From assembly GCA_020073445.1 (NCBI GenBank), contig JAIQFE010000019.1, positions 62,001 through 126,000 on the forward strand: a stretch of DNA of 64,000 nt. Direction: 5' to 3'. A model generated the notes under the pieces. The model ran no database searches, was not told the origin of the DNA, and saw nothing but the letters and a program-made list of their open reading frames with translations. This DNA is from Terriglobia bacterium. Lineage in GTDB: Bacteria; Acidobacteriota; Terriglobia; Bryobacterales; Bryobacteraceae. Of this stretch, positions 12,431 through 20,830 are shown in pieces. The translations under genes were made by a program, and so were the position numbers. The number at the start of each line of letters is the position of its first letter. Position 1 is the first letter of the stretch.

Positions 12431-13483
12431 TTACCTAAACTCTTCCTGCATCCGCTCCAGCTCCGCCGACCCCGGACACAGCTTCTCATACGCCAGATCG
12501 CGCAGCGGCGTCGGCGATGACTGCCCCAGCTCGTGCATATCCGGCGCGTTTGGATCGATGTACAGGAGCCCCGTGACCACGGCGTTCGCGGGCTGATCAT
12601 CCAGATACGCCGCCACCTTCCGGCGATCCGTGGGATCGTAATCCTTGGGAACCGTGGAGAAGTGGACCACGCTGCCGTCGTGCATGGCAACCGATGTCGT
12701 GCCGGACTTGCTGATCTGCGCCAGGATTTCGCTCTGCGGCGGCACCCAATCGGCCTGCGTGGCCCGCAGCGTGTTCTTGCGCGTGTGCTTGTAGCTCTTG
12801 GTCGACCCTTCGTGATCGTTGAAGGTCACGCACGGCGACACCACATCCACCAGCGCGAAGCCGCGATGCGTGAACGCAGCCTTCAGAATTGGCACCAGTT
12901 GTTCTTTATCGCCCGAGAAACTGCGCGCGATGAACGTCGCTCCCAGCGACAGCGCCAGGCGCACGGGATCGATAGGAGCCATCCGGTTCGGCTCGCCGCG
13001 CTTGCTCTTCGACCCGATGTCGGACGACGCCGAGAACTGACCCTTCGTCAGCCCATACACGCCGTTGTTCTCGAGAATATACGCCATGCGGATATTGCGA
13101 CGGATCGCGTGGCACATCTGGCCGAGGCCGATCGAAAGCGAATCGCCGTCACCCGATACGCCGATGTACAGAAGGTCGCGATCGGCCGCGCCGGCTCCCG
13201 TCACGATCGCAGGCATACGCCCGTGGGCGGAGTTAAAACCGTGCGCGCCGCTCAGAAAATATGTCGGAGTCTTGGAAGAACAGCCGATGCCGCTCAGCTT
13301 GGCCACCATGTGCGGTTGGGTATCCAGCTCCCACAGCGCGCGAATGATGGCGGCGGTGATGGAATCGTGCCCGCAGCCGGCGCACAGCGTGGACATGGAC
13401 CCTTCGTAATCGCGGATGGTCAGCCCCAGCGCGTTGCGCTGCAGGGTCGGGTGCGTGGCGATGGGTTTTGCGATCGACGGCAT
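12431..13483 (-). CDS. korB: 2-oxoacid:ferredoxin oxidoreductase beta subunit
   Basis: The 350-residue thiamine-diphosphate subunit has C34-x2-C37 (LCAGCGHDS), the TPP/Mg2+ motif GDGDS (111-115) and its partner ENNGVYGLTKG (138-148), and a long C-terminal region. The enzyme oxidatively decarboxylates a 2-oxoacid to its acyl-CoA and reduces ferredoxin, or runs in reverse. The gene is 14 bp downstream of the fused alpha/gamma gene. 2-Oxoglutarate is the likeliest substrate by similarity; pyruvate or another ketoacid is possible. Confidence 0.9.
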   Translation of the reverse strand: MPSIAKPIATHPTLQRNALGLTIRDYEGSMSTLCAGCGHDSITAAIIRALWELDTQPHMVAKLSGIGCSSKTPTYFLSGAHGFNSAHGRMPAIVTGAGAADRDLLYIGVSGDGDSLSIGLGQMCHAIRRNIRMAYILENNGVYGLTKGQFSASSDIGSKSKRGEPNRMAPIDPVRLALSLGATFIARSFSGDKEQLVPILKAAFTHRGFALVDVVSPCVTFNDHEGSTKSYKHTRKNTLRATQADWVPPQSEILAQISKSGTTSVAMHDGSVVHFSTVPKDYDPTDRRKVAAYLDDQPANAVVTGLLYIDPNAPDMHELGQSSPTPLRDLAYEKLCPGSAELERMQEEFR

Positions 13484-13497
13484 GGTCGTTGCTCTTT

Positions 13498-15300
13498 CTA
13501 AATTTGGCTCAGAATCCCCTGCACTACGTGGCGGCTGCTCAGCGGGAATCCTCCGTACACCAGAACGCTACGCAGCTTTTCCTTCGGCACGGCGGTTTCC
13601 AGGATCAGCAGCGAGCGAAGTTGCGCGTCGCGGCTTTGCTCCACCACGAAATAAAAATCGTGCTTGGCCAGAAATCTCTCCACTACTTCGCCGAACGGGA
13701 ATCCGCGTATACGCAGATAGTCGGCGGGCGTGCCCTGGCGATCCAGTTGATCCAAGGCTTCGCGGACTGCCGGATCGCACCCGCCCATGGCGATCACGCC
13801 GAATTTCGCGCCTTCGCGAGGAACATACTCCGGCTCCGGGATGAACTTTGCCGCCGCCGCATGCTTCTTCTTCAGGCGATCCATCACTTCCTGGTACTCG
13901 TCCGGAATTTCGGTATAGCCGCCGAACTTGTTGTGCCCCGATCCGCGCGTGAAGTATGCGCCCTTCTGGCTTACGCCCGGCAACGTGCGCGCCGCCACGA
14001 AGTTTTCGTCCTCTTGGTTGTAGCGCTGGAATTTTCCGATCTTCTTCTCCAGATCCTCGGCGTTCAGAACCCGCCCGCGGTCCGGTTTGTAAGAATCGTC
14101 CCAGGTCAGGCGCGGCACCACCCAGTCATTCATGCCGATGTCGAGATCCGACATCAGGATCACCGGCGTCTGGAACCGCTCCGCCAGATCGAACGCCTTG
14201 ACGGCGAAATGGAAGCACTCGTTCGGATTCGCCGGGAACAGCAAAATGTGCCGCGTATCGCCGTGCGACGCATACGCCGCCATCATCACATCGGATTGCT
14301 GGGTGCGCGTCGGCATCCCCGTGGACGGCCCCACGCGCTGGACGTCGACTACCACCGCCGGAATCTCCGCGTAGTAACCGAACCCCAGCAGTTCATTCAT
14401 CAAGGAAAGCCCGGGACCAGCGGTCGAGGTAAACGCGCGGGCGCCGTTCCAGGACGCGCCCAGCACCATGCCGATCGCTGCCAGCTCGTCCTCGGCCTGG
14501 ATGATCAGGTAGTTGTTCTTCCCGGTTTCGGGATCTTTCCGGTATTGCTCGCAGAATCCTTTGAACCCGTCCATCACCGAAGTCGCCGGCGTGATCGGAT
14601 ACCATGCCGCGACGGTGCACCCGGCGTAAATCGCTCCCAGGGCCGTGGCCGTGTTGCCGTCAATCAGGATCTTGTCCTTGTTGGCGTCCATCTTTTCCAG
14701 ACGGAAGGGCAGGGGACATTCGAAGTGGTCCTTGGCGTATTGATAGCCCAGCAGCAGGGCCTTGCGGTTCGAATCGGCCAACGCCTTCTTGCCCGCGAAC
14801 TTCTCTTCGAGCAGCGCGTTGACCACGTCCATGTCGATATCGAGCGTCGCCACCATCGCGCCGGCGTAAGCGATGTTCTTCATCAGAATCCGTACCCGGG
14901 GATCGTCGAAATTCTGATTGCACAGCTCGGCCAAGGGCACGCCGAGAAACGTGATGTCTTCGCGATGCAGATCGGGGTCCAGAGGCCAGGACGAATCGTA
15001 CAGCAGGTACCCGCCTGGCCGGACTTCTTTGATATCGCGATCGTAAGTCTGCGAGTTCATCGCGACCATCAGGTCGTAATCGAGCGCCCGCGCGGAGTAG
15101 CCTTCCTTGTTGACGCGGATCTCATACCAGGTGGGCAGGCCCTGAATATTTGACGGGAACAGATTCTTGCCGCACACGGGAATACCCATGCGGAAAATGG
15201 CCTGCATCAGCAGCCCGTTCGCGCTAGCGGAGCCGGTTCCGTTGACGTTGGCGAGCTTGACCGCGAAATCGTTTACGCGAGTACGGAGGACGTCGTGCAT
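13498..15300 (-). CDS. korA: 2-oxoacid:ferredoxin oxidoreductase alpha subunit (gamma-alpha fusion)
   Basis: The 600-residue protein joins an N-terminal gamma domain (about 1-190, starting with KLANVNGTGSASANGLLMQA) to the alpha domain, recognisable by AAWYPITPATSVMDGF and AGPGLSLMNELLGFGYYAEIP. This fusion is usual for two-subunit KorAB enzymes. It binds CoA and, with KorB, forms the TPP active site. Its start codon lies 28 bp inside the end of the upstream flavoprotein gene, so translation of the two is probably coupled. Confidence 0.92.
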   Translation of the reverse strand: MHDVLRTRVNDFAVKLANVNGTGSASANGLLMQAIFRMGIPVCGKNLFPSNIQGLPTWYEIRVNKEGYSARALDYDLMVAMNSQTYDRDIKEVRPGGYLLYDSSWPLDPDLHREDITFLGVPLAELCNQNFDDPRVRILMKNIAYAGAMVATLDIDMDVVNALLEEKFAGKKALADSNRKALLLGYQYAKDHFECPLPFRLEKMDANKDKILIDGNTATALGAIYAGCTVAAWYPITPATSVMDGFKGFCEQYRKDPETGKNNYLIIQAEDELAAIGMVLGASWNGARAFTSTAGPGLSLMNELLGFGYYAEIPAVVVDVQRVGPSTGMPTRTQQSDVMMAAYASHGDTRHILLFPANPNECFHFAVKAFDLAERFQTPVILMSDLDIGMNDWVVPRLTWDDSYKPDRGRVLNAEDLEKKIGKFQRYNQEDENFVAARTLPGVSQKGAYFTRGSGHNKFGGYTEIPDEYQEVMDRLKKKHAAAAKFIPEPEYVPREGAKFGVIAMGGCDPAVREALDQLDRQGTPADYLRIRGFPFGEVVERFLAKHDFYFVVEQSRDAQLRSLLILETAVPKEKLRSVLVYGGFPLSSRHVVQGILSQI

Positions 15301-17072
15301 GAGACTCCAGAATTAGGTGCGCCAGCGTATGGAATGAGTAAGTCGAACTTTTGCATGTCCCAGGCCGCCGTCGGGCAGCGCTCGGCGCACAGGCCGCAGT
15401 GAACGCAAACGTCTTCATCCTTCACCATGGCCCGTCCGGTTTGCGGCAAGGGATTCGAAGCGTAAATTGCCTGTTCGAGGTTAGTGGCCGGCGCGGAAAG
15501 CCTGGTCCGCAGTTCCGATTCCTCGCCATCCCGGGTAATGGTCAGGCACTGCACCGGGCAGATGTCCACGCAGGCGTCGCACTCGATGCAGCGCTTCTCG
15601 ACGAACACCGTCTCGATATCGCAGTTGAGACATCGCTGCACTTCGCGTGCAGTCTGCTCCGGGTCGAACCCTAGCTCCACTTCAATGTTGAGCTGCTGGA
15701 AGCGCTTGGTCAGCTCCACATGCTGCATCTTCTGGCGCTTCGATGGGTTGTAGTCGTTGTGATAGCTCCACTCGCTGATGCCCATCTTCTGGCTGACCAG
15801 GTTGGAGCCTTGCTTGGGGCGATCGGTGACCGGCACACCCTGGCAATGGTTGTGAATCGAGATGGCCGCTTGGTGCCCGTGCGCGACCGCCCAGATGATG
15901 TTCTTGGGTCCCCACGCCGCGTCGCCGCCGAAGAAAACTCCCGGGCGCGTCGATTGGAACGTGGCCTTGTCCACCGTGGGCATGCCCCACTTGTCGAACT
16001 CGATTCCGAGGTCGCGCTCGATCCAGGGGAACGCGTTTTCCTGGCCGATCGCAAGGATCACATCGTCGGCGGGAAGAAACACTTCGTCGATCACGCGCGA
16101 TTTCTTGGCCTCGGCGTCCCATTCCAGACGCTCGAACTCCATGCCCTTCAGCACGCCGTTTTCGACCACGAAGCGCTTCGGCGCGTGGTTGATGACGATG
16201 TCGATGCCTTCTTCTTCGGCATCGTCCAGTTCCCACGGCGACGCCTTGAAGTATCCGCGCGGGCGGCGAGCCATCACCTTGATATCTTTCCCGCCCAGTC
16301 TTCGCGACGACCGGCAGCAGTCCATGGCCGTGTTGCCGACGCCGATGATCAGAACCCGCTCGCCGATCTTATCGATATGCCCAAACGCGACCGATTCCAG
16401 CCAGTCGATGCCGATGTGGATCCGGTCCGTGTCCTTGCGGCCCGGCAGATCTAATTCCTTGCCGCGCGGCGCGCCGGTGCCGACGAACACTGCGTCGTAC
16501 TTATCGTTCAATAGTCCTTGGAGGCTGCTGACAGGCGAGTTGTAGCGAATATCGACGCCCATGTCGAGAATCGTGCCGACCTCGTCGTCGAGCACCTTTT
16601 CGGGCAGCCGGAACGACGGAATATTCGACCGCATCAGCCCGCCGGGCTTGTTCTGTTTTTCGAAAATCGTGACTTCGTAGCCGAGCGGCCGCAAATCGTT
16701 CGCCACCGTAAGTGATGACGGGCCGGCTCCGATCAGCGCCACGCGCTTGCCATTCGATTCTGTTGGGATCTTCGGGAGCAGGTGCGAAATATCGCCCTTG
16801 AGATCGGCGGCCACGCGTTTCAGGCGGCAGATCGCGACGGGAGCTCCATCCAGGCGTCCCCGGCGGCAGGCCGGCTCGCATGGTCGATCGCAGGTGCGGC
16901 CTAGAATCGCCGGGAACACGTTGGATTCCCGGTTGACCATGTAGGCGTCGGTGTACTTACCCTGTGCGATAAGTCGGATGTACTGCGGCACGTTCGTGTG
17001 CGCAGGGCAGGCCCACTGACAATCGACTACTTGGTGGAAGTAATCAGGGTTGCGAACGTCGCTAGTCTTCAG
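15273..17072 (-). CDS. GltD-like NAD(P)H flavoprotein fused to a double 4Fe-4S ferredoxin; apparent CTG start
   Basis: From the C-terminus backwards, the product has an 8-Fe ferredoxin-like tail (CLNCD, CIECDACVDICP, CVHCGLCAERCP), an NAD(P)-binding fold (IIGVGNTAMDC), an FAD fold (LIGAGPSS) and a GltD-type cysteine region (CDRPCEPACRRG). The first ordinary start, GTG at 16991, would cut off the conserved Fe-S residues in VVDCQWACPAHTN. The open frame extends 27 codons further to CTG at 17070-17072, preceded by AGGGGA at an ideal 6-base spacing. No ATG, GTG or TTG exists between GTG 16991 and the upstream in-frame stop. It probably passes electrons between the KorAB ferredoxin pool and NAD(P)(H). 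Confidence 0.85.
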   Translation of the reverse strand: MKTSDVRNPDYFHQVVDCQWACPAHTNVPQYIRLIAQGKYTDAYMVNRESNVFPAILGRTCDRPCEPACRRGRLDGAPVAICRLKRVAADLKGDISHLLPKIPTESNGKRVALIGAGPSSLTVANDLRPLGYEVTIFEKQNKPGGLMRSNIPSFRLPEKVLDDEVGTILDMGVDIRYNSPVSSLQGLLNDKYDAVFVGTGAPRGKELDLPGRKDTDRIHIGIDWLESVAFGHIDKIGERVLIIGVGNTAMDCCRSSRRLGGKDIKVMARRPRGYFKASPWELDDAEEEGIDIVINHAPKRFVVENGVLKGMEFERLEWDAEAKKSRVIDEVFLPADDVILAIGQENAFPWIERDLGIEFDKWGMPTVDKATFQSTRPGVFFGGDAAWGPKNIIWAVAHGHQAAISIHNHCQGVPVTDRPKQGSNLVSQKMGISEWSYHNDYNPSKRQKMQHVELTKRFQQLNIEVELGFDPEQTAREVQRCLNCDIETVFVEKRCIECDACVDICPVQCLTITRDGEESELRTRLSAPATNLEQAIYASNPLPQTGRAMVKDEDVCVHCGLCAERCPTAAWDMQKFDLLIPYAGAPNSGVSCTTSSVLA

Positions 17073-17078
17073 AGTCTT

Positions 17079-17084
17079 TCCCCT
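17079..17084 (-). promoter_or_regulatory. Shine-Dalgarno site supporting the CTG start
   Basis: On the minus strand AGGGGA ends 6 bases before the CTG at 17072. A TAAAAT hexamer (17093-17098) ~8 bp further upstream could be the -10 box, giving a short leader that includes this site. The GTG 81 bases downstream (16991) lacks a comparable site. Confidence 0.55.
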
Positions 17085-17137
17085 GAGATTTGATTTTACA
17101 ACAACTTAATCGCTAAACTTGACATTCTTCTCGACCT

Positions 17138-17863
17138 GTGAATTCTAGCAAACAATCCTTAGTGCTCCTGCCCGGCTTCCTCTGCGACCAAACGGTATGG
17201 AAACATCAGATGACGGCATTGGCGGATGTCGCAGACTCAAGCTGCATGGAATGGGCCCCCGAGCACGATTCCATCGTTGCCATGGCCGAGGCCGTGCTGC
17301 GCTGGGCGCCGCCGACGTTCGCACTCGCCGGGCACTCCATGGGCGGCCGCGTAGCCTTCCAGGTCTATCGGCTGGCGCCCGAACGAGTGACCAAGCTCGC
17401 AGTATTTAACACGGGCTCCGATGCGCGTCCCGCAGGTGACGCAGGGGCAGCCGAAGAAGCCGGTCGCCGAAAGTTGCTGGCGATCGCCCGCTCCCAAGGC
17501 ATGCGGCCCATGGCCGTCGAGTGGCTCAAAGGCATGCTCCCGCCGTACCGGCAGAGCGATACCCCGCTGGTCGAAGAAATCATCCAGATGTTCGAACGCA
17601 AGTCGGCGGATCTGTTCGAAATCCAGATGCTGGCGCTGCTCGGCCGCCCGAATGCGACTCCCTTGCTCCAGCAGATCCAGTGCCCGGCGCTGGTGCTGAC
17701 GGGTGCCGACGACGCCTGGAGTCCGCCCGCCCGCCATGCTGAAATCGCTCAGTTCATTCCGCATAGCGAACTGGTGCTGGTTCCCAAGTGCGGGCATATG
17801 TCGACCATGGAGCGGCCGGATGAGGTGACCGCCGCCATGCGCGCATGGCTGAATCGGTTGTAA
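17138..17863 (+). CDS. Alpha/beta-hydrolase
   Basis: The 241-residue protein has the oxyanion-loop segment LLPGFLCDQTVW, the nucleophile elbow GHSMGG, the acid region LVLTGADDAWSP and the catalytic-histidine region KCGHMSTMERPDEV, so the Ser-Asp-His triad is complete. There is no signal peptide, so it is likely cytoplasmic. Substrate is unknown. A perfect TTGACA (17119-17124) lies just before the GTG start, which would put the -10 inside the first codons; a downstream GTG at 17161 is therefore an alternative leaderless start. It is divergent from the KOR operon. Confidence 0.85.
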   Translation: MNSSKQSLVLLPGFLCDQTVWKHQMTALADVADSSCMEWAPEHDSIVAMAEAVLRWAPPTFALAGHSMGGRVAFQVYRLAPERVTKLAVFNTGSDARPAGDAGAAEEAGRRKLLAIARSQGMRPMAVEWLKGMLPPYRQSDTPLVEEIIQMFERKSADLFEIQMLALLGRPNATPLLQQIQCPALVLTGADDAWSPPARHAEIAQFIPHSELVLVPKCGHMSTMERPDEVTAAMRAWLNRL

Positions 17864-17941: not shown

Positions 17942-19132
17942 GTGGCTAGAATAGTTGGGGTCCTGAAAGAGACCTTCCCCGGTGAGCGGTGTGTGGCGAT
18001 CGTCCCGCGCTCGGTGGAGGTTCTCAAAAAATCTGACATCACGGTGATTGTGGAACCGTCGGCTGGCGTCGAAGCTGGCTACACCGACGACCAGTACATC
18101 GCCAAGGGCGCGACTACCGCCTCCCGCGCAGAGATTTTCGCGCAGGCCGATATCATCATCCAGTTCCGCAGCCTGGGTGCGAATCCCGAGGCTGGCCGCG
18201 CCGATCTTGGCTCCCTGCGCGCTGGCCAGATCGTGATGGGACTAGGCGAGCCGCTCACGGCGGTCCGTGAGGCTGCGGATCTCGCGGCCACGGGCGTGTC
18301 GTTCTTCGCGATGGAACTGATTCCGCGAACCACGCGCGCGCAGAGCATGGACGTGCTGTCCTCGCTCGCGACCATTTCGGGCTACGAAGCCGTGCTGCTG
18401 GCCGCTCAGGCGCTTCCGAAAATCTTTCCGATGCTGATGACCGCCGCCGGCACCATTACTCCTGCGAAGGTATTCGTCATCGGCGCCGGTGTGGCCGGGT
18501 TGCAAGCCATCGCCACGGCGCGACGCCTGGGATCGGTGGTCAGCGCGTACGATGTCCGTCCCGCGGTGAAAGACCAGATCGTCAGCGTGGGCGCGAAATT
18601 CATCAGCCTGGACGTCGAAGCCACCGCCGCCGAGGATAAGGGCGGTTACGCCAAGGTCATGGACGAGGCGTTCTATCGCCGCCAGCGCGAACTGATGCTG
18701 GAGGTAGTCCGCGAGCAGGACGTGGTGATTTCGACCGCCGCCGTTCCCGGCAAGAAGGCTCCCGTGCTGATCACCAGGGAAATGGTCGAAGCCATGGCGC
18801 CCGGGTCGGTGATCATGGATATCGCCGCGGTGCGCGGCGGCAATTGCGAGCTTACACGCCCCGGCGAAACCGTGATCCACAAGGGCGTCACGATCCTGGG
18901 CCCGACCAACTTCGCGTCCATGGCCCCCTACCACGCAAGCCAGATGTTCTCGGCCAACGCGATCACGTTTCTGAAGCACCTGATTGGGTTCCTGCCTCTG
19001 TCGAGCGAAGTGACCGATGACATCGTCACCGACACTCTGGTCACGCACGGTGGTGAGGTGACGAATTCTCGGGTCCGTGAAGCGCTCGGACTACCCGCCG
19101 CGGAGCCGGTTTCTTCCGGGAAGGTTTCCTAA
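17942..19132 (+). CDS. pntAA: Proton-translocating NAD(P) transhydrogenase, alpha-1 (NAD-binding) subunit
   Basis: The 396-residue protein, starting at GTG, matches domain I of transhydrogenase: N-terminal VGVLKETFPGERCVAIVPRSVEVLKK, the NAD fold VIGAGVAGLQAIATARRLG, and the conserved segment TAAVPGKKAPVLITREMVE. It binds NAD(H) at the cytoplasmic face. The split into three genes (pntAA, pntAB, pntB) is the Rhodospirillum-type arrangement. A perfect CCCGATCGGG palindrome lies upstream (17888-17897) near a weak TTGCGC/TATCAT promoter match with a long 19-bp spacer. Confidence 0.95.
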   Translation: MARIVGVLKETFPGERCVAIVPRSVEVLKKSDITVIVEPSAGVEAGYTDDQYIAKGATTASRAEIFAQADIIIQFRSLGANPEAGRADLGSLRAGQIVMGLGEPLTAVREAADLAATGVSFFAMELIPRTTRAQSMDVLSSLATISGYEAVLLAAQALPKIFPMLMTAAGTITPAKVFVIGAGVAGLQAIATARRLGSVVSAYDVRPAVKDQIVSVGAKFISLDVEATAAEDKGGYAKVMDEAFYRRQRELMLEVVREQDVVISTAAVPGKKAPVLITREMVEAMAPGSVIMDIAAVRGGNCELTRPGETVIHKGVTILGPTNFASMAPYHASQMFSANAITFLKHLIGFLPLSSEVTDDIVTDTLVTHGGEVTNSRVREALGLPAAEPVSSGKVS

Positions 19133-19135
19133 ACA

Positions 19136-19432
19136 ATGCAGTCCTACGAATTTGGTTTGTACGTCTTCATGCTCGCTGCGTTCCTCGGATTCGAGCTGGT
19201 CAAGCGAGTTTCCCCACTTCTGCACACGCCGCTGATGTCGCTCTCGAACGCGATCTCAGCCATCGCCGTGGTCGGCGCGATCCTGATTTCCGGCGAGAAA
19301 GACGCCTCCACGCTCCAGCGCGTGCTTGGATTCGTCGCGGTGATCTGCGCCACGCTCAACGTGGTCGCGGGGTACCTCATCACCGACCGCATGCTCAAGA
19401 TGTTCCGCAAGCGCGAGCCTGAGAAGAAATAA
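19136..19432 (+). CDS. pntAB: NAD(P) transhydrogenase, alpha-2 membrane subunit
   Basis: The 98-residue protein has three to four hydrophobic helices and the conserved TPLMSLSNAISAIAVVGAIL stretch of the PntA membrane domain, ending with a basic tail (DRMLKMFRKREPEKK). It forms part of the proton channel with PntB. It begins 3 bp after pntAA ends and 21 bp before pntB. Confidence 0.95.
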   Translation: MQSYEFGLYVFMLAAFLGFELVKRVSPLLHTPLMSLSNAISAIAVVGAILISGEKDASTLQRVLGFVAVICATLNVVAGYLITDRMLKMFRKREPEKK

Positions 19433-19453
19433 CCAAGAAATAGTCAAGACCAG

Positions 19454-20830
19454 ATGATAGAAAACGTTCTTCCCGCGATTTACCTGCTCGCCTCCGTCGG
19501 CTTCATTCTTGCCGTCAAGTGGATGAACAACCCTGCTACCGCGCGCCGCGGCGTGATCATCGGCGAAATCGGCATGCTGCTGGCCGTGATCGGAACGCTG
19601 CTGCGGCCCGAAGTGGTTGAGTACCGATGGATCTTGATCGGACTGGGAATCGGTTCCGCGATCGGCGCGCCCCTGGCCTACCTGATGCCGATGACGGCGG
19701 TTCCGCAGCTCACCGCGCTCTCGCATGCGTTCGGCGCTCTGGCATCGGCTTTAATCGGTACGGCGGAATACTACAAGGGCGAGATCCCGCTCGGCTTTCC
19801 GATGGGCGCCCTGGTGCTCGAATCGCTTCTGGGATTTCTGACCACCACCGCCAGTATCATCGCCTTCGCAAAATTGCAGGAGCTGATGCCCACGCGCCCG
19901 ATGACCTATAAGGGCCAGAACGTGGTCAGCCTCAGCATGCTGACTGCGGCGATCGTGATCGGCGGCTGGATGGTGGCCGCGCCCGCGCCTACGTGGGCGT
20001 TCCCGGCATTCATCGCTCTCGCTATGGGGTTCGGCATCATGCTGGTGATCCCGATCGGTGGAGCCGACATGCCCACCGTGATCGCGCTGCTCAATTCTTA
20101 TGCCGGCGTCGCAGCCGCGGCCATGGGTTTCGTGCTCAACAACCGCCTGCTGATCATCGCCGGCGCGCTGAACGGTTCGGCCGGTTTGATCCTGTCGATC
20201 ATCATGTGCAAGGCCATGAACCGGTCGTTCACCAACGTATTGTTCGGGGCGTTCGGACAATTGGCGGCCGCCGCTACCGGCACAGTGGCCCAGAGACCGG
20301 TCCGGTCGGCGACCCCCGACGAAGCCGCGTCGATTCTCGATTCCGCCCGCTCGGTGATCGTCATTCCGGGTTACGGGATGGCCGTGGCGCAGGCTCAGCA
20401 TAAGATTCGCGAACTGTACGACGCACTCACGAAGCGCGGCATTGACGTGAAGTTTGCGATTCATCCGGTCGCAGGCCGCATGCCCGGCCACATGAACGTG
20501 CTGCTGGCCGAAGCCGATATTCCCTACGACAAGCTGCTGGAGATGGACGAGATCAATGGCGATTTCCCCAATACCGACGTCGCGCTGGTGATCGGCGCGA
20601 ACGACGTGGTGAATCCCCTGGCGCGTACCGATAAGACCAGCCCGATTTACGGCACGCCGATCCTGGATGCCGATCGCGCCCGCACTGTCATGGTGATCAA
20701 GCGCAGCATGAGTCCCGGTTTCGCCGGCATCGACAACGAGTTGTATTACATGAACAACACGCTCATGCTCTTCGGCGACGCGAAGAATTTCGTCGCCGGC
20801 ATCGTCAAGGAATTGGCCGGTTCCCACTAG
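19454..20830 (+). CDS. pntB: NAD(P) transhydrogenase beta subunit
   Basis: The 458-residue protein has an N-terminal membrane domain with about eight helices (to ~residue 265) and a C-terminal NADP-binding domain III with VIVIPGYGMAVAQAQHKIREL and the GANDVVNP segment. The complex uses the proton gradient to drive hydride transfer from NADH to NADP+. Its position next to the flavoprotein-linked KOR operon suggests shared control of reduced-cofactor balance (inference). A short palindromic repeat follows the stop codon. Confidence 0.96.
   Translation: MIENVLPAIYLLASVGFILAVKWMNNPATARRGVIIGEIGMLLAVIGTLLRPEVVEYRWILIGLGIGSAIGAPLAYLMPMTAVPQLTALSHAFGALASALIGTAEYYKGEIPLGFPMGALVLESLLGFLTTTASIIAFAKLQELMPTRPMTYKGQNVVSLSMLTAAIVIGGWMVAAPAPTWAFPAFIALAMGFGIMLVIPIGGADMPTVIALLNSYAGVAAAAMGFVLNNRLLIIAGALNGSAGLILSIIMCKAMNRSFTNVLFGAFGQLAAAATGTVAQRPVRSATPDEAASILDSARSVIVIPGYGMAVAQAQHKIRELYDALTKRGIDVKFAIHPVAGRMPGHMNVLLAEADIPYDKLLEMDEINGDFPNTDVALVIGANDVVNPLARTDKTSPIYGTPILDADRARTVMVIKRSMSPGFAGIDNELYYMNNTLMLFGDAKNFVAGIVKELAGSH

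Follow-up and report, generated by a model that had tools for sequence, protein, structure and literature searches.

A GltD-like flavoprotein gene in a 2-oxoacid:acceptor oxidoreductase operon of a Bryobacterales bacterium very likely starts at CTG, and near-cognate start codons are probably ancestral in its clade

In E. coli, translation of infC and pcnB begins at AUU, a rare near-cognate start codon that is tied to control by initiation factor 3 (IF3). The gene described here resembles these two in that its start is conserved, lies outside ATG, GTG and TTG and is accompanied by a Shine-Dalgarno-like (SD) site, whereas it very probably uses CTG instead of AUU, with ACG as the likely start in sister species. 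It encodes a GltD-like FAD/NAD(P) flavoprotein and stands next to genes for KorA- and KorB-like subunits of a 2-oxoacid:acceptor oxidoreductase (Kor) in a stretch of 64,000 nucleotides of contig JAIQFE010000019.1 from a Terriglobia bacterium. This stretch is called the window in the following; all coordinates refer to it, the window genome is G000 and its flavoprotein forms row L001 of the homologue comparison.

Start codons were reported to switch at a fixed position among closely related genomes, with weak codons being accompanied by better conserved SD sequences (Belinky et al., 2017, PMC5622118). According to the available part of this source, switches to CUG amount to 2/61,358 from AUG, 1/5,080 from GUG and 1/2,468 from UUG, compared to which the gene described here carries CTG in 8/72 and ACG in 2/72 genomes of the same family, numbers that concern one gene and partly reflect one inherited event. 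Start-codon tuning in Listeria, as far as described in the accessible text (PMC13068326), is alike in that start codons are linked to clades and a weaker codon shifts a subunit balance (RsbW:SigB); it differs in that ATA and ATT arose there in laboratory acid selection, the natural flexible codons being ATG and GTG. Non-AUG starts of chloroplasts have likewise been kept for long periods of evolution, but they belong to an organelle and the authors argue, in the portion available, for over-expression and not for lower expression (PMC9845219). A literature search for ACG start codons in bacterial operons returned, judged by title and abstract, matches on plants and chloroplast genomes, which does not prove absence from print. 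A CTG start as such is of a rare but known kind; what sets this one apart is that it was inherited within a clade in which ACG occurs as well.

The elements of the window gene are the following.
15273..17072, minus strand: GltD-like FAD/NAD(P) flavoprotein of 599 codons counted from CTG, with Fer4_20 at the N-terminus and a 4Fe-4S dicluster region at the C-terminus (frame reading and Pfam).
17070..17072, minus strand: CTG, predicted start codon (the aligned codon is NTG in 111/113 and ACG in 2/113 distinct homologues).
17079..17084, minus strand: AGGGGA, SD-like site 6 nucleotides 5' of CTG (duplex energy -6.5 with an assumed anti-SD sequence).
17093..17098, minus strand: TAAAAT, likely -10 promoter box ending 20 nucleotides before CTG (enrichment of TANAAT; promoter function putative).
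17106..17108, minus strand: TAA, in-frame stop that closes the frame upstream.
16992..17072, minus strand: N-terminal extension of 27 codons, which gene callers limited to ATG, GTG and TTG would miss.
17007..17021, minus strand: codons 18-22 (C-Q-W-A-C) with Cys18 and Cys22, within Fer4_20 (putative ligands, judged from the family).
16989..16991, minus strand: GTG (Val28), first conventional start codon in frame, not conserved (GTG in 5/8 near-cognate rows; SD energy -1.5).

Read on the minus strand, the window sequence runs from the stop TAA through GTT GTT GTA AAA TCA AAT CTC AGG GGA AAG ACT to CTG and on with AAG ACT AGC. CTG 17072-17070 is followed by LKTSDVRNPDYFHQVVDCQWACPAHTN, residues 8-33 of the flavoprotein are NPDYFHQVVDCQWACPAHTNVPQYIR, and the codons GAT TGT CAG TGG GCC TGC CCT GCG CAC ACG AAC precede GTG 16991. 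The interval between the stop and this GTG is free of ATG, GTG, TTG, ATT, ATC and ATA, the CTG is its sole NTG codon, and one ACG is present at codon 26, 3' of both cysteines. The stop is the 12th codon upstream of CTG in the window genome as well as in G012, with no conventional codon (ATG, GTG or TTG) in between. The initial annotation had claimed that the frame extends 27 codons 5' of GTG 16991, that no ATG, GTG or TTG occurs in this extension back to an in-frame stop, and that AGGGGA precedes the CTG by 6 bases; all of this is borne out by the minus-strand reading, which places the stop TAA at 17108-17106 and AGGGGA at 17084-17079.

The position of the start was compared among homologues collected from the genus of the window genome (23 genomes), from its family (75 of 237 genomes matching at 1e-150) and from a collection of named genomes (best 80 of 327). 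A search at the level of the order (257 genomes) again resulted in 75 matching genomes, those listed being identical to the family set. Among 168 loci the motif filter retained 152 genes, 113 of them distinct; the aligned codon was located by counting 16 codons back, without gaps, from the motif of the type DCQWACPAHT. Outside the counts are L127 (G050), which missed the motif filter and has GTG at the aligned place, and G072 and G074, which end inside the gene. The aligned codon is GTG in 54, ATG in 26, TTG in 22, CTG in 9 and ACG in 2 of the 113 distinct homologues, and with one gene per genome taken from the 72 genomes of the own family it is GTG in 27, TTG in 20, ATG in 15, CTG in 8 and ACG in 2. 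NTG occurs in 2-6/113 homologues at each in-frame codon 1-8 upstream and in 0-1/113 at each codon 1-13 downstream, whereas codons 14 and 15 downstream, two valines preceding the cysteine motif, are NTG in 11/113 and 32/113. Since neighbouring codons, except for these two, are rarely NTG, the aligned position is the start position of the family. Inspecting the start codons of homologues had been proposed as a check on the CTG; 102 of the 113 carry GTG, ATG or TTG exactly there and 11 carry CTG or ACG. One Acidimicrobiaceae contig (L098) has two copies of the flavoprotein gene, with ATG at the aligned start in one and TTG in the other.

The same CTG is present at the same place in G000, G006, G011 and G012. 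For a lone case, a sequencing or assembly error replacing ATG would be the default assumption, and the initial annotation had stated that the case would also fall with a sequencing error creating an ATG. Such an error has a negligible probability, because the CTG recurs in three other genomes, and three full-length genes among these four close genomes are 33-37% apart at fourfold sites. The piece from G012 (L029) is 96% identical to the window protein over residues 1-278 and has ATT directly beside the CTG. In G011, whose start region is identical in sequence to L035, a named Bryobacterales metagenome-assembled genome (MAG), an in-frame TAG lies two codons 5' of CTG and no ATG, GTG or TTG follows until +27. 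G006 contains a TTG at -15, upstream of the TAAAAT box and with a weak SD.

Over the 26 codons that follow the start codon, each pair of the four closest genomes differs by 3-5 synonymous changes and by none that is nonsynonymous, indicating that the extension evolves as protein. The conserved-looking N-terminus with Fe-S cysteines that had been described from the sequence of the window is thereby corroborated, with Cys18 and Cys22 lying in Fer4_20. This also bears on a start at GTG 16991, which as the first conventional start codon would give a protein beginning 27 residues later, either alone or in addition to the longer one. Its SD energy is merely -1.5, the codon is GTA in G012 (L029) and GTT in G018 (L009) and G069 (L116), hence not GTG in 3 of the 8 near-cognate rows, the codons upstream are conserved as protein, and the product would lose both Cys18 and Cys22. 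We regard this start as highly improbable; homologues starting at the GTG without the upstream cysteines had been named beforehand as speaking against CTG, and all 113 distinct homologues have a start-type codon at the place of CTG. Downstream of CTG, the nearest ATG, GTG or TTG is codon +27 in the genomes G000, G006 and G011 and codon +44 in G012, in each case beyond both cysteines. Taken together, the flavoprotein of the window very likely initiates at CTG 17072, as judged from these sequence comparisons.

The leader is conserved as well. In the four close genomes 28-30 of the 30 nucleotides before CTG are identical, compared to only 10-15 of the preceding 30 nucleotides, so that the conserved leader is the part holding the -10-like box and the SD. 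Of 73 upstream regions, mostly from Acidobacteriota and picked by locus number, 58 contain TANAAT, versus a mean of 4.3 after single-base shuffling. The arrangement implies a leader of about 13-14 nucleotides, which would begin near the SD. The distance of 20 nucleotides from the -10-like box to CTG in the four closest genomes is the minimum among the 58 motif-bearing upstream regions (20-76 nucleotides). A divergent open reading frame (ORF) resembling alpha/beta hydrolases (17138-17863, plus strand; translation read by eye) has its GTG start 65 nucleotides from the CTG, and the two genes may have two promoters that share a very short stretch.

A careful tree was calculated from 41 of the 113 rows, covering the genus and the CTG cases, with the first 16 residues removed, next to a quick tree of 111 rows; the partial CTG row L029 is in neither, as it is too short. 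In the 41-row tree, L001, L007, L008, L037 and L116 (CTG) together with L009 and L010 (ACG) form one clade with support 97/86, adjoined by L011 and L012 (GTG), and the same seven-row clade is found in the quick tree with a value of 90 in the Shimodaira-Hasegawa-like approximate likelihood ratio test (SH-aLRT). All eight genomes sampled from the clade have either CTG or ACG at the aligned codon, and none has ATG, GTG or TTG there. A near-cognate start probably dates back to the ancestor of this small Bryobacterales clade. The two ACG genomes, G018 (L009) and G021 (L010), have CAGGGGAGA 5 nucleotides upstream of the ACG (SD energy -8.2). In the 26 codons after ACG the pair differs by 6 synonymous and no nonsynonymous changes, and changes are also synonymous before a GTG (codon +14 or +15) that would leave the cysteines in the protein but lacks an SD in both genomes. 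G018 has no NTG or ATN codon between ACG and the upstream stop; in G021, TTG and CTG occur 24 and 22 codons upstream, unshared by G018, the TTG having an SD of -8.4 that is 15 nucleotides off. Initiation at ACG is likely in G018 and G021, but less certain than at CTG in the window, because cysteine-sparing alternatives exist and ACG is common nearby as an ordinary threonine codon (at +3 in 32/113 and at +5 in 18/113 homologues).

A caveat concerns near-cognate initiation beyond the window gene. In eight of the 11 near-cognate rows the cysteines would also be kept by a conventional codon in frame, either upstream (L007, L010, L037, L116, L067, L071, L081) or as GTG at +14/+15 (L009, L010, L037, L116, L067, L081). 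Only L001, L008 and L029 are without any cysteine-sparing ATG, GTG or TTG, and between the stop and the cysteines the window, G011 and G012 contain no conventional in-frame start. The alternatives in the other eight rows have a weak or badly spaced SD: SD energies for ATG -12 in L116, TTG -12 in L037, GTG -13 in L071, ATG -8 in L081 and TTG -35 in L067 are 0, 0, -1.7, -3.3 and -2.1, compared to -9.8, -7.0, -10.3, -6.5 and -6.0 for the aligned CTG of the same rows. A few further conventional codons of L067 and L071 lie farther upstream, outside the SD scoring. Overall, the SD energy of the aligned codon is between -6.0 and -10.3 in all 11 near-cognate rows, and 16 of the 20 scored in-frame alternatives have 0 to -3.3. 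The four alternatives with strong SD are ATT -1 in L029 and L037, which uses the SD of the CTG itself at shorter spacing, TTG -24 in L010, and ATG +33 in L071, which has an SD of -6.1 but lies 3' of the cysteines. It might thus be that some members start at a conventional codon farther upstream and the near-cognate clade is smaller than it appears. The best candidates, the in-frame ATG in L116 (G069) and the TTG in L037 (a Bryobacter MAG), each stand directly 3' of a -10-like TATGAT (read by eye) and would hence be nearly leaderless. However, in both rows it is the aligned CTG that has GGAGGG or GAGGGG as SD, L116 and L037 agree at only 12/30 nucleotides before CTG and 10/30 in the next 30, and the explanation is inapplicable to the window genome, G011 and G018, which have no such upstream codon. 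We consider it unlikely.

The initiator tRNA appears to be ordinary. An unusual initiator tRNA was considered and rejected: an initiator-type tRNA with CAT was found in 10/10 genomes by a pattern for the GGG...CCC anticodon stem, which a variant stem would escape. ARAGORN reported a tRNA in 12 of 17 fetched loci and nothing in the remaining 5. All 12 are tRNA-Met with anticodon CAT, and every genome has one or more of them; an earlier, stricter pattern had returned one CAT match plus other, probably chance, matches. A special mRNA structure was likewise discarded, as the mean fold energy near the start is alike for CTG (-12.6), GTG (-12.5), TTG and ATG (both -11.8); it is -8.3 for the two ACG rows. 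Two motif searches for an AUU start of infC, as a sign of IF3 control, gave no match, and in the 4 loci read by eye, of 21 fetched, the apparent start of infC is ATG. In a crude comparison aimed at relaxed start choice across the genome, covering ORFs of the window and 15 stretches of 10 other genomes, 39 of 333 coding-like pairs were flagged and 7 of these are the present gene (one of them involving G016, with TTG), a procedure that over-flags. A second version flagged 13 of the 122 ORFs that were selected and had a partner, but has poor sensitivity and left the present gene itself unflagged, owing to the in-frame TTG of G006 upstream of the promoter box. On quick reading, the remaining flagged cases resemble shadow frames or tails that overlap with the preceding gene.

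The protein and its neighbours would fit an electron-transfer function. Pfam assigns Fer4_20 to residues 17-91 (63.9 bits, cut-off 25.8), Pyr_redox_2 to residues 110-399 (95.2 bits, cut-off 26.1) and Fer4_7 to residues 494-570, the 4Fe-4S dicluster region. None of the 25 listed matches to named NCBIfam models passes its cut-off; the best of 61 is PRK12771 with 408 bits, below the cut-off of 516. 'KorC' serves as no more than a working label here; the flavoprotein is GltD-like and has two additional 4Fe-4S motifs. NfnA (PDB 9n5u) matches the window protein over residues 12-504 and GltD (PDB 2vdc) over residues 17-411, with the CxxxCP motif aligning in both, and dihydropyrimidine dehydrogenase (DPD; PDB 1h7x) matches over residues 17-412. 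Unlike flavoproteins of the GltD/NfnB type, the window protein has just 17 residues before the first cysteine, a C-terminal dicluster and an operon with KorA and KorB. The window genome contains a second flavoprotein frame of 652 codons (G000:C6:200007-201863; L002, L004), 43% and 33% identical over two matched parts. The two other genes of the operon are the following.
13498..15300, minus strand: KorA-like 2-oxoacid:acceptor oxidoreductase alpha subunit (TIGR03710, 560 bits, cut-off 483; SD energy -5.9).
12431..13483, minus strand: KorB-like 2-oxoacid:acceptor oxidoreductase beta subunit with ATG start (TPP_enzyme_C, 82.5 bits, cut-off 21.9).
The ATG of the KorA-like gene at 15300 sits inside the end of the flavoprotein gene, the overlap being 28 nucleotides. 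The KorB-like protein scores 208 bits with TIGR02177, under the cut-off of 262, and the adjacent genes for alpha and beta subunit are as expected of a 2-oxoacid:acceptor oxidoreductase operon. Domains and gene order suggest that the flavoprotein might link the Kor core to NAD(P)H as an electron carrier. ORFs resembling NAD(P) transhydrogenase alpha and beta subunits (17942-20830, plus strand; translations read by eye) lie beside the Kor operon and would fit such a link.

In the mechanism that we propose, the ordinary initiator tRNA with CAU anticodon would start at CTG 17072 aided by the AGGGGA SD, formylmethionine (fMet) would be the first residue and both N-terminal cysteines would be retained. 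Initiation at this first gene of the operon would occur at a low rate, KorA would be initiated separately from its own ATG and SD, and the cell would produce less of the flavoprotein than of the KorA/KorB core. KorB offers a comparison from the same operon. At the 66 loci with readable KorB, KorB starts with ATG in 51, GTG in 10 and TTG in 5 cases, and the flavoprotein with ATG in 16, GTG in 37, TTG in 9 and CTG in 4; ATG is found only in KorB at 35 loci and only in the flavoprotein at none (sign test 6e-11, without correction for shared ancestry). In 7/7 rows of the clade KorA starts with ATG and is preceded by an SD of its own (-3.8 to -6.6).

Selection for the weak start is only suggested by these data, and a number of points speak against it. 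Outside the clade KorA frequently has GTG or TTG and is therefore not a clean control. The SD at CTG is no stronger than usual in the family (mean of the GTG rows -6.5), the use of ATG in 26/113 homologues means that the family can do without weak initiation, and CUG is, according to the available part of the source, a poor initiator in E. coli (PMC11497404), so that the real yield could be very small. Alternatively, CTG or ACG is the true start without regulatory meaning, a slightly harmful codon that drifted in and is tolerated with adequate SD and low demand, which concerns the purpose and not the start. At least four changes between near-cognate and conventional codons on the trees agree with such drift, though the cases outside the main clade (L067, L071, L081) have alternatives, and so does the somewhat stronger SD of non-ATG starts (mean -6.9 versus -5.8 for ATG, p=0.07). 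Moreover, C is kept in all five CTG rows at 15 of 85 fourfold C sites, so that persistence of the CTG alone is weak evidence for selection and not unlikely under drift. On the other hand, a single change of the first base turns CTG into GTG, ATG or TTG, yet none of the eight sampled clade genomes shows one, and KorB has ATG far more often. The chances of tolerated drift appear to be about balanced. Low, SD-dependent initiation that would hold the flavoprotein below the Kor core is the reading that we prefer, but it is no likelier than drift, and a stoichiometric purpose of the weak start is put forward tentatively.

For annotation, the codons predict that a caller limited to ATG, GTG and TTG would shorten the protein by 27 residues in the window genome and in G011 and by 44 residues in G012, at the cost of two likely Fe-S ligands, and that it might choose an upstream TTG in G006 and G021 and a GTG 15 codons late in G018. 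A clade in which the start codon switched between CTG and ACG, with no strong codon at that place, would be a natural series on selection for weak initiation, with KorB in the same operon as built-in control. A broader and rather doubtful possibility is that the weak start is a heritable trait, in which the flavoprotein has less ATG than KorB in Acidobacteriota and in MAGs named Actinomycetota and one Bryobacterales clade settled on CTG and ACG, so that the Kor core would outnumber the electron-transfer subunit or the latter would respond to IF3 levels. If true, ACG would be a natural start codon that a bacterial clade has conserved in its chromosome.

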